Of a DNA stretch of 64,000 nt, positions 1,112-4,013 are shown piece after piece (within the stretch, counting starts at the first letter, position 1; every line of letters begins with the position of its first letter). This stretch comes from a bacterium (GTDB lineage: Bacteria; Zhuqueibacterota; Zhuqueibacteria; Residuimicrobiales; Krinioviventaceae). The stretch lies in the NCBI GenBank assembly GCA_029561455.1, contig JAKQIY010000074.1:1-64000 (forward strand), written 5' to 3'. The position numbers and the translations under genes are program-made. The notes under the pieces were generated by a model. It searched no databases. It had not been told where the DNA came from and saw nothing but the letters and a program-made list of their open reading frames with translations.

Positions 1112-2401
1112 ATGAGCAGTGAAAACAAAGATGCATTGGGTATCCTGGTAGGCGGAGGGCCGGCGCCGGGACTGAATGGAGTTATTGCCGCCGTGACCAT
1201 CGAAGCGAGACGCCGGGGTTTGGAAGTGTATGGATTATATGATGGTTATAAATGGCTGGTACAGGACAATGAAAAAGCCTTTATGGATCATGTGCAGAAA
1301 TTACATATCCGCGATGTGTCCCGCATCCATTTTGACGGCGGATCCATTTTACGCACCTCGCGTACCAATCCCGCCAAAGTGCCCAATGGCATAACCAACA
1401 GCGTGGCCAATTTACGTAAATTGAATATCAAATACATGGTCACCATTGGCGGCGATGATACCTCCTACGGCGCCAGCAAGATCGCTGAAGGCGCCGGCGG
1501 TGAAATCAAATTTGCCCACGTTCCCAAAACAATTGATAACGATCTGCCCATTCCTGAAAACACCCCAACTTTTGGCTATCAAACCGCCCGCGATCTCGGT
1601 TCCATGCTCATCCGTAACCTGATGGAAGACGCCAAGACCACCGGCCGCTGGTATATTGCCGTGGCTATGGGCCGTCATGCCGGACACCTGGCGCTGGGTA
1701 TAGCCAAATCTGCCGGCGCAACGGCTGCTATCATTGCTGAAGAATTCGGCGATGTCGAACACATTGAATTAAGCAAGGTTTGCGATATATTTGAAGGCGT
1801 GGTGATCAAACGCCAGGCGATGGGCAACAACCACGGTGTGCTGGTGATTGCCGAAGGCGTGGCGGAAAAGTTCCGCAGCGAAGAGTTGGAAAAAATTCCC
1901 GGCGTTAAAGTGGAATATGATGGTTTTGGACATTTGCGTCTTGCCGAAGTTGATCTTGGCAAACTTGTCAAAGATGAACTGAAACGACGTTTTGAAGCCA
2001 GAAAACAGAGCCTGACCATGGTCGAAACCAACCTCGGTTATGTGCTGCGCTGCCATCCCCCGATTCCCTATGACCAGGAATACACCCGCGACCTGGGTTA
2101 TAATGCCGTGCGTTATTTGCTGAGCAAAGAACCGGCGCACAAGAAAAACGCCCTGATCTGCGTGATCAACGGCGAACTGCGCCCGTTGTACTTTGACGAT
2201 ATGATCGATCCCAAAACCGGCAAAACCCAAATCCGCTATGTGGATATTAAAAGTGAAAGTTATAAAATCGCCCGCAGCTATATGGTTAGACTGGAAAAAC
2301 GCGATCTCGATGACGCCGAATTTCTTAAACAACTGGCTGCCACTGCGAAAATGTCGGAAAAGGAATTTCTCGATAAATTTGGCTGGACGACAGAATTCTA
2401 A
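1112..2401 (+). CDS. pfp: PPi-type 6-phosphofructokinase
   Basis: Phosphofructokinase family, interconverting fructose 6-phosphate and fructose 1,6-bisphosphate. The 429-residue protein shows the N-terminal GGGPAPG loop, GGDDT at 113-117, PKTIDND at 138-144 and MGR at 186-188. The second Asp in GGDD (Gly in ATP enzymes) and the Lys of PKTIDND (Gly in ATP enzymes) are the two family markers of pyrophosphate use, so I infer a reversible PPi-dependent enzyme serving both glycolysis and gluconeogenesis. A good ribosome site (AAGGAG, 1098-1103) precedes the ATG. It follows pheA by 33 nt. A second, more divergent PFK lies at 8285-9568 inside the hexuronate operon, so the two probably have different substrates or regulation. 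Confidence 0.92.
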   Translation: MSSENKDALGILVGGGPAPGLNGVIAAVTIEARRRGLEVYGLYDGYKWLVQDNEKAFMDHVQKLHIRDVSRIHFDGGSILRTSRTNPAKVPNGITNSVANLRKLNIKYMVTIGGDDTSYGASKIAEGAGGEIKFAHVPKTIDNDLPIPENTPTFGYQTARDLGSMLIRNLMEDAKTTGRWYIAVAMGRHAGHLALGIAKSAGATAAIIAEEFGDVEHIELSKVCDIFEGVVIKRQAMGNNHGVLVIAEGVAEKFRSEELEKIPGVKVEYDGFGHLRLAEVDLGKLVKDELKRRFEARKQSLTMVETNLGYVLRCHPPIPYDQEYTRDLGYNAVRYLLSKEPAHKKNALICVINGELRPLYFDDMIDPKTGKTQIRYVDIKSESYKIARSYMVRLEKRDLDDAEFLKQLAATAKMSEKEFLDKFGWTTEF

Positions 2402-2571
2402 TATATTGGCAAGGTGGAATTTATTTAACTACTAAATATGCAACGGTCGTCGAGTAGTCCCGCTCCCGCATAGCGGGACGGGACGTATCGAGACGATCTT
2501 TGCAGGCGAAAACAAGTATGTTGGGATTCTATCCCACCATTTCTAAAGTGAGTTTGCCGCTCACAAAATTA

Positions 2572-2604
2572 AAAGCCCGGTAAATGCCGGGCTTTATTGT
2601 TTTT
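2572..2604 (+). terminator. Rho-independent terminator after pfp
   Basis: A 9-bp perfect stem (2572-2580 with 2587-2595, AAAGCCCGG/CCGGGCTTT) with a 6-nt loop, followed by ATTGTTTTTA. It lies 170 bp after the pfp stop. Confidence 0.7.
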
Positions 2605-2782
2605 AATCCACATTGATCGTCCGGAGTTTCCTAACTCCGGACGTATAATGATTACGGGTTTCCAATCCGTTAGAATCCAAATTATAATTGTAAAAATAAG
2701 TTGATCTGTGGTGGCGGGATGGGAATCCCGCCATTATCTGGCGCACGGGGATAGAGACCCCGCGCCAGCATTATATGGGTTG

Positions 2783-2812
2783 TGTAGAGACAAGGTATGC
2801 CTTGTCTCTACA
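2783..2812. repeat. 13-bp perfect palindrome, TGTAGAGACAAGG type
   Basis: The longest hairpin of the array: arms 2783-2795 and 2800-2812 pair perfectly around TATG, and flanking bases (TGGGTT near 2776, AACCCC near 2817) can extend the pairing. The GTAGAGAC...GTCTCTAC frame matches a palindrome type I recall from cyanobacterial genomes, where the inner stem varies from copy to copy. Confidence 0.75.
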
Positions 2813-3518
2813 AGTAAACCCCATTATCGTTCGATCTCGCGCCAAGTCTCTGGCTTGGCGCTAAAGGGCACAGCCTCCGGCTGAGTAACTGTGACAGGGG
2901 AATAGTTTTGAAATAACAAGTTTGCTGCAATTTCTGACTTGCTGCCTAGCCGGGGCTGAAGAATTCCAGACTGGGAGACCTGGAACCATGTTAAAAGAAG
3001 CAGATACAAAGCTTATGATATTATAAAAAATGGCTGGTCTTCAATATTTCCCGGCGGAGCCGAGGCCGTGAGGTTCCAAGCCAGAGACTTGGAACCAGGT
3101 AATAGTCCTGCCATTTATTGCGCACCGGGGTGCAACCCCGGCGCGATCGTCTTGTTTGATACAGCAGCTTTGTCGGGGCCTGCGGCCCGGCAGGTCGATA
3201 TGTCCTGCATTATTCTACGACCATGGGAACATCTCCGCCTGTGGCGGATCTTCGACCCAGGGCGAGCAGGACCAAATTTCTGGGTGCAACCCCGGCGCGA
3301 TCGTCGATTGTATCCCCGGCTGGAGCCTCAAAGATAATATGCTTTGTAGCTGTATATGCTTTTAAAAAACCACTTGAAAATAATAAATAAAATTATTAAA
3401 TAGAATAAAACTTCCATTCCCAAAAAGACAAAAGAAAGACAAGTTAGCTACTTATAAACCGGACTAGTGTGATTTTCCCGGTATATAAGGAGATTATCAT
3501 CATAATTTGGGAGCCGAT

Positions 3519-4013
3519 ATGCAAGAATCAAAAAAAGATGACTATTACTGCGAGCAATGCCGGGCTGTTGTAACGGAAGATGCCGACTATTGCAGCCGTT
3601 GCGGCAGCCTGTTCGTAGATCAGGTTATGTGTAATCACCATGCGATGACCCAGGCGGAAGGTGTATGTGTGATCTGCGGCGTTCCGTGTTGTGATAAATG
3701 CGGGGAAATGGTTAATAATACATTCCTCTGCCGCCAACATGCCGGTTATGAGATATGTCAGGGCATGGCGCGAGTTTACGGGCTGAATGATTCATCCCAG
3801 GCCGAATATATAATGAACATTTTAAAAGAACAGGGGTTGCATCCTTTTTTATATTCACGCAAAGCCACACCCCTGCACATGGGCGCCGTAGATGATGCGA
3901 TTATTCACCCGGCAGGTGAGTATTTCGGGCATACGATCAACGAGATAAAGGTCATGGTTCCGTTCCCGGAAGCGCTGGAAGCAGAAGCGATTCTTAAAGA
4001 TATGGAACTGTGA
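3519..4013 (+). CDS. Zinc-ribbon / B-box-like protein with putative signal-transducing C-terminus
   Basis: About 164 residues with two cysteine-rich modules. An N-terminal zinc ribbon (CEQC...CSRC, about residues 11-30) is followed by a B-box-like segment (CNHH...CVICGVPCCDKCG, then CRQH). The C-terminal half (about 85-164) has no metal ligands and looks like the DUF2007-type putative signal-transducing domain (SQAEYIMNILKEQGL, then a beta strand with VMVPFPEALEAEAIL). Such proteins are cytoplasmic and their role is unknown. A TTG at 3507 is in frame, but ATG 3519 has GGGAG (3509-3513) at a better distance; AAGGAG at 3487-3492 would suit the TTG. It is convergent with the permease gene, only 9 nt away. 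Confidence 0.7.
   Translation: MQESKKDDYYCEQCRAVVTEDADYCSRCGSLFVDQVMCNHHAMTQAEGVCVICGVPCCDKCGEMVNNTFLCRQHAGYEICQGMARVYGLNDSSQAEYIMNILKEQGLHPFLYSRKATPLHMGAVDDAIIHPAGEYFGHTINEIKVMVPFPEALEAEAILKDMEL

Follow-up and report, generated by a model that had tools for sequence, protein, structure and literature searches.

A mixed cluster of probable REP hairpins downstream of a phosphofructokinase gene in a KSB1 bacterium, and the linkage of most of its hairpin families to RAYT genes elsewhere in the genome

The intergenic region between the stop codon of the 6-phosphofructokinase gene (pfk, stop at 2401) and the next gene (3507) contains an array of short hairpins that is a REP (repetitive extragenic palindrome) cluster of unusual diversity, the kind of repeat being known and the families being new. 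The array is very probably a composite cluster whose hairpins are moved or copied in trans by RAYT/TnpA_REP proteins encoded elsewhere in the genome. It is located in a window of 64,000 nucleotides (contig C19:1-64000) of a genome of 5.85 Mb, and its elements are listed in the table. About 15 stem-loops at 2458-3320 had been proposed by a sequence-only reading of this DNA, and such an array is indeed found: between 2401 and 3500, there are 8 strict non-overlapping hairpins, as compared with 0.43 ± 0.67 (maximum 3) in 100 dinucleotide shuffles, and the number increases to 10 at a slightly looser cut and to about 17 when decayed copies are included. The span of the array is better given as about 2450-3310, with hairpins spaced by 20-100 bp. 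One of the hairpins in this stretch, at 2572-2595, is not an array repeat but the intrinsic terminator of pfk. The variable stems of that reading are also confirmed, whereas its single set is not, as the hairpins belong to at least six families, each with its own variants.

Table. Genes, array elements and a further repeat discussed in the text (positions in the window unless a contig or locus is named)
Position	Strand	Feature	Evidence or remark
1112..2401	+	6-phosphofructokinase gene (pfk), upstream neighbour of the array	PF00365, E 2.3e-54
2445..2492	+	REP-like, family 7 (cgagtaGTCCGTCCCGC..GCGGGACGGACgtatcg), core hairpin 2457-2479	12 family-7 members elsewhere above shuffled maximum
2514..2540	+	REP, family 8, GTAG type (GTAG-GGTGGGAT-TCT-ATCCCACC)	7 members above null; foot decayed to GTAT
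2549..2567		Weak hairpin GTGAG TTTGCCG CTCAC	Fold -7.2 kcal/mol; matches no family above null
2572..2595	+	Intrinsic terminator of pfk, not an array repeat	AAAGCCCGG..CCGGGCTTT; ortholog in congener
2618..2643		REP, family 0 (CGNNCNGGNTTTCNTAANCCNGNNCG)	Proposed cognate RAYT region C28:68456-69043
2650..2674		Weak hairpin around ACGGGTTTCCAATCCGT	Fold; no family match above null
2712..2733		REP-like, family 0 side branch (TGGCGGGAT GGGA ATCCCGCCA)	Weak: 3 family-0 members just above null
2740..2770		Hairpin CTGGCGCACGGGG ATAGAGA CCCCGCGCCAG	Fold -19.4 kcal/mol; best family score below null
2783..2812		REP, family 6, 'double foot' (GTAGAGAC..GTCTCTAC)	13 members above null; RAYT region C68:111008-111640
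2839..2861	+	REP, family 2 (CGYRCCAAG TCTCYGG CTTGGYRCG)	Cognate RAYT region C36:362946-363479
2864..2890		Small hairpin CAGCC TCC GGCTG	Fold; no family match above null
2960..2992		Decayed REP, family 2 (TTCCAG..CTGGAA)	1 family-2 member above null
3072..3096	-	REP, family 2 (GGTTCCAAG TCTCTGG CTTGGAACC on minus strand)	7 members above null
3121..3145		REP, family 0 (CGCACCGGGGT GCA ACCCCGGCGCG)	12 members above null
3166..3198	+	Decayed REP, family 11, GTAG type (GTAG-GTCGGGCC-TGT-GGCCCGAC)	2 members above null; RAYT C46:57776-58330, flank enrichment
3210..3270		Decayed family-0 REP (CGACCATGGG..CCCAGGGCG)	Fold -23.6 kcal/mol; weak family match
3276..3310		Half-copy (family 0) that repeats the 24 nt of 3128-3151 exactly	2 members above null
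3507..4013	+	Downstream gene, small zinc-ribbon-like protein with many CxxC pairs	No Pfam match
L044:7133; L099:12769-13463; L109:7701		Two-level palindrome repeat	

The array families recur outside the window, as seen in a 2.46 Mb sample, 42% of this genome. The hairpin density in this sample is 1.89/kb in intergenic and 0.33/kb in coding DNA, a 5.7-fold difference, and clustering of the hairpins gives about 17 recurrent families, plus terminators, with moderate copy numbers of 10-80 per family. Twelve array hairpins score higher against families 7, 8, 0, 6, 2 and 11 than any of 60 shuffles; those at 2712, 2963, 3170 and 3210-3270 count as weak matches or decayed copies, and for those at 2549, 2653, 2740, 2869 and 3230, no match to the genome's hairpin families above shuffles is found. 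Family 8 (core GGGATTCTATCCC) has 24 copies in the genome (11 on the plus and 13 on the minus strand), family 6 has 12 copies and the core of family 2 has 14 copies, with 0 matches of the reversed control pattern for each of these; the pattern CGNNCCNGGNTTTCNTAANCCNGG, which is one base too long, has 0 matches everywhere and is uninformative. A restriction of the copies to the window, which would have spoken against the earlier reading, is therefore not observed. A 5' GT[AG]G foot at the stem base, a further trait of REPs, is present in the consensus of families 5, 6, 8, 11 and 15 and absent from families 0, 2, 1, 4 and 9, and families 0, 2 and 7 have no clean GTAG foot. Since the members of the array split into separate families, a single structured RNA or a one-family array is ruled out. 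REPs are palindromes of 20-40 nt with many, mostly intergenic, copies; they have sub-families with alternative complementary residues in the stem and a cognate RAYT gene that is flanked by the same hairpins. The array families are palindromes of this size and distribution, complementary stem alternatives are seen as covariation in two families, and a cognate RAYT flanked by the same hairpins is found for families 0, 2, 6 and 11. Apart from the pfk terminator, the array hairpins look like REP repeats.

The pairing of the stems is preserved while their sequences change. The loop TTTCNTAA, present in the array at 2627, recurs in the 2.46 Mb sample in 10 more paired copies, whose stems differ, and other recurring loops of the array are ATTCTAT (loop TCT) at 2526 and TCTCYGG at 2847 and 3081. 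When searching with the loop only, all three lie between paired, differing arms at a higher rate in intergenic DNA than in coding DNA, in agreement with the earlier claim that loops recur while changed stems still pair. The covariation score, which is guarded by shuffle and slide controls and includes the kinship of the copies, is 0.413 for the TTTCNTAA family, as compared with 0.137 ± 0.036 when shuffled (reached by 0 of 500 shuffles), and the signal is lost once the partners are slid by 1-3 columns; for the TCTCYGG family, the score is 0.360, as compared with 0.139 when shuffled (also 0/500). Members were admitted when 6 or more of the 8 pairs were formed, by which the percentage paired is biased and the alignments are partly recruited by pairing. 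Compensatory change in excess of chance, on which the sequence-only reading depended, is thus present in both families, and its suggestion of structured single-strand elements under pairing constraint is supported by this covariation together with the genome-wide copies.

Among relatives, the outer arms GTAGAGAC/GTCTCTAC are kept and the inner stem is swapped whole, being AAGG, AGGTC or GCCCG under the shared GTAGAGAC arms. These whole-stem differences, and also the often perfectly matched arms, are what is expected when stem variants are made by template switching (quasi-palindrome correction), such that pairing is kept by copying and not by selection. This is an unlikely explanation, as it leaves the fixed loops, the fixed stem positions and the linkage to RAYT genes unexplained, and template switching may operate alongside selection. 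If the hairpins are REPs handled by RAYTs, then the stems would change in matched pairs because the element must keep folding for recognition, and the loop and certain stem positions would stay constant as the features read by the cognate enzyme. Short hairpins would form when the DNA is single-stranded and would be copied or moved in trans by RAYT/TnpA_REP proteins, a group of Y1 (HuH) tyrosine transposases, with a different one for each hairpin family. By analogy with the mechanism of binding, cleavage and transfer of studied RAYTs (PMC8266576), the cognate HuH enzyme would bind the stem-loop and the foot, cut, and transfer the strand of the folded hairpin. We infer that the array elements have been mobile in this way and that the relation between hairpin family and RAYT is a biochemical cognate pairing.

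As stated in the sequence-only reading, no RAYT or other Y1 transposase gene is found in the window. Elsewhere in the genome, there are seven Y1_Tnp genes over the PF01797 cut-off (Pfam) and about a dozen loci matching NCBIfam NF047646, six of them over the cut-off; the HuH and catalytic tyrosine motifs, together with the profile cut-off, identify these loci as RAYTs, and most of the approximately dozen RAYT/TnpA genes are flanked by their own hairpin family. Many copies, compensatory pairs and a Y1 transposase, the combination by which the earlier proposal was to be supported, are therefore all found in this genome. According to motif readings after PMC6006769, and not to a tree, C68, C67 and C51 are of subclass 2.4, C28 and C36 are 2.6-like, C36:316532 and C46:57776 are 2.2-like, C46:8550 is tentatively 2.8-like, C78 is of subclass 1.2, and C61 is of a divergent type with a YIRYNRRKH motif. 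C68 and C51 have REPs within the RAYT reading frame, a published hallmark of subclass 2.4 (PMC6006769). At C51:6900-8000 (L249/L253), the C-terminal part of the subclass-2.4 RAYT is in tandem repeat, with GTAG hairpins (GGGCGCCC, GGGCAGGG) within and between the repeated parts. The contigs of the assembly often stop near REPs and RAYTs (C38:17618 of 17784, C49:7802 of 7968), with many RAYT loci near contig ends, and assembly gaps probably hide further REP/RAYT copies.

The linkage of hairpin families to these genes is shown when counting the copies of each family that are no more than 1 kb away from its assigned RAYT, without ORF mask. Family 2 has 8 flanking copies, summed over two RAYT loci of which one is interrupted by a stop, as compared with 0.015 expected, the family 0/10 variants have 7 (0.006 expected), family 6 has 3 (0.010 expected) and family 11 has 3 (0.022 expected), such that four array families correspond to four different RAYT regions, with Poisson P values of 1e-6 to 1e-20. 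The non-array families 9 and 1 have 4 (0.027 expected) and 6 (0.054 expected) copies at RAYT flanks, respectively. Family 0 is linked to the C28 gene through single-linkage clustering with a loose cut, and the particular family 0 variants of the array differ from those flanking this RAYT. For family 8, the RAYT link (C67) is weak, one-sided and single-copy; for family 7, no cognate RAYT is found when considering the hairpins near the genome's RAYT loci; and the 2.2-like gene at C36:316532 (L002) has no flanking hairpins. The linkage is also seen when 436 predicted genes of 130-260 aa are scanned blindly for matching hairpins on both sides: six genes are picked, four of them being RAYTs (Fisher P 1.5e-7, taking about six RAYTs in the scanned set). 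One of these, at C36:362946-363479, is missed by Pfam and has an NF047646 score of 93.9 bits, over the cut-off. The other two picked genes are a HAD-type phosphatase gene and a probably spurious ORF, both located between dispersed hairpin copies. A simple blind flank test, searching for the same hairpin on both sides of a gene, recovers RAYTs that are overlooked by Pfam.

The C78 gene (L001, C78:217664-221002) encodes a protein with the Y---Q--HH motif of subclass 1.2, and the gene is flanked six times by family 1 (CCACG...CGTGG), of which the sample contains about 60 copies. Among KSB1 relatives, 5 of 14 subclass-1.2-type genes have matching hairpins on both sides, as compared with 2 of about 430 control genes. 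TnpA genes with this motif and their own hairpin families are L001, L226, L230, L234 and L235, examples of the flanking hairpins being CCACGATC taaa GATCGTGG and TTGTCCC taac GGGACAA. At L024:6525-7528, tandem units of 328 bp with family-1 (CCACG) and CGCGCCGGGAT hairpins form a REPIN-like array. IS200/IS605 insertion sequences carry transposase genes that are nearly identical and present in high copy, together with subterminal hairpins and often tnpB. The Y1 genes of this genome are divergent single copies and do not classify as such elements; the L001 protein, for which IS200/IS605 elements and subclass 1.2 TnpA (PMC6006769) are the nearest known systems, has the motif of subclass 1.2. These data suggest that subclass 1.2 TnpA proteins are also REP-associated, and this association is the point most worth following because the published summary of the TnpA classification lists no REP for subclass 1.2 (PMC6006769). 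A further Y1 protein, in which YIRYNRRKH replaces Y---NP, is encoded in both congeners (at the C61:320905 end, L004, and in G001:C117, L219) by a gene flanked by CAAGGGG..CCCCTTG hairpins, and is possibly of an unlisted RAYT group.

Hairpins of different families tend to be neighbours in this genome: 140 different-family pairs are found within 300 bp, as compared with 38 expected (maximum 61 in 500 shuffles), an excess of 3.7-fold, and within long intergenic regions, there are 102 such pairs, as compared with 42 expected. Similar mixed clusters are seen at L136, L072, L068 and L011. This clustering would also agree with the earlier suggestion of hairpin-targeted mobile units; in such a process, each element would insert into a hairpin already present, at its loop or foot, and arrays would grow by nesting. 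REPs inserted into palindromes are reported from three other genomes (PMC3733652). In the array, the loop of the 3210-3270 hairpin contains a second hairpin, TCCGCC TGT GGCGGA (3234-3248), a single case of a possible nested insertion. However, only 6 of 569 hairpins are located inside an outer interrupted stem, with 5.5 expected, and five of the six belong to one unrelated repeat. The clustering is equally well explained by tolerant intergenic space, though the excess persists within long regions, and growth by nesting is very unlikely. A two-level palindrome, with CTCTGCGGTT..AACCGCAGAG inside and CTCTGCG..CGCAGAG outside, is part of a long repeat that is unrelated to REPs. In a REP cluster handled by RAYTs, the elements would have piled up between the pfk stop, the terminator and the next gene because this stretch tolerates insertions; the simplest cause of the clustering is that insertions are tolerated in the space downstream of genes, and a shared target preference behind the mixed clusters is possible. 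It is conceivable, though rather doubtful, that insertion preferences are common to the REPs of unrelated RAYT subclasses, which would actively build mixed hairpin arrays at shared sites, and that TnpA subclass 1.2 and the YNRxKH group (C61, CAAGGGG) are further unrecognised REP systems.

The pfk site provides a comparison with relatives. In a congener (G001:C98, annotated as candidate division KSB1), where the phosphofructokinase is 90% identical, the distance from the pfk stop to the start of the orthologous terminator AAAGCCCGGTGTTACCGGGCTTT is 26 bp, and in another member of the bacterial family, this distance is 16 bp. Here, it is 170 bp and includes elements of families 7 and 8, and the REPs between stop and terminator are, as judged from these sequences, a lineage-specific gain. 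Beyond the terminator, the gene order differs from that of the congener, and gain can therefore not be polarised there. Hairpin density is highest between convergent genes (1.80 per kb), lower between tandem genes (0.88) and lowest between divergent genes (0.46), the same ranking as for known REPs (PMC3733652). This ranking, the position of the array 3' of a gene and the presence of one true terminator would also fit RNA elements (terminators, attenuators or mRNA stabilisers) multiplied for regulation, with an incidental proximity to RAYTs, but this is hardly credible, as a T tract is present only at the pfk terminator, near-identical units of the families are concentrated around RAYT genes far above chance, families 8, 6 and 2 drop from 24, 12 and 14 copies to 0, 0 and 1 in the congener, and no Rfam covariance model matches the window over its gathering cut-off.

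Integron attC arrays carry gene cassettes between attC sites, plus an integrase, and the spacing of the hairpins here leaves no room for cassettes. The GTAG foot of families 8, 11, 5 and 6 is that of the GTAG-type REPs associated with subclass 2.4/2.2 TnpA_REP proteins (PMC3733652, PMC6006769); family 6 has their 'double foot' form, C68 and C51 carry in-frame REPs as in subclass 2.4, and each RAYT here likewise tends to have its own family. Unlike in the GTAG-type systems, the stem and loop sequences are new, the host belongs to the candidate phylum KSB1, and many families and RAYTs of several subclasses are mixed in one intergenic region. Families 0/10 and 2 (CGNNCCGG.., CGYRCCAAG..) are without GTAG foot, like the 'atypical' REPs of subclass 2.6 TnpA of Bacteroidetes (PMC6006769), and they flank genes with NHLH and YIH[DY]NP motifs, as in subclass 2.6; this likeness is read from the motifs and the foot, and the REPs of subclass 2.6 and class 3 are also without GT[AG]G foot (PMC6006769). 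The BIMEs and REPINs of Escherichia and Pseudomonas (PMC3116915, PMC2817692) are likewise intergenic clusters of REP hairpins in both orientations, but they consist of one REP type, whereas the cluster described here mixes about six. In a literature search, GTAGAGAC returned primers only, and no earlier report linking KSB1 with REPs or RAYTs was found among the papers searched.

REP systems are hereby extended to an uncultured phylum. New details are that REPs of different families adjoin each other more often than expected and that subclass 1.2 has its own hairpins here. The RAYTs of this one genome, about a dozen from several subclasses, together with their readable hairpin families, form a natural set of enzyme-substrate pairs, which are useful for understanding how domesticated Y1 transposases recognise hairpins.
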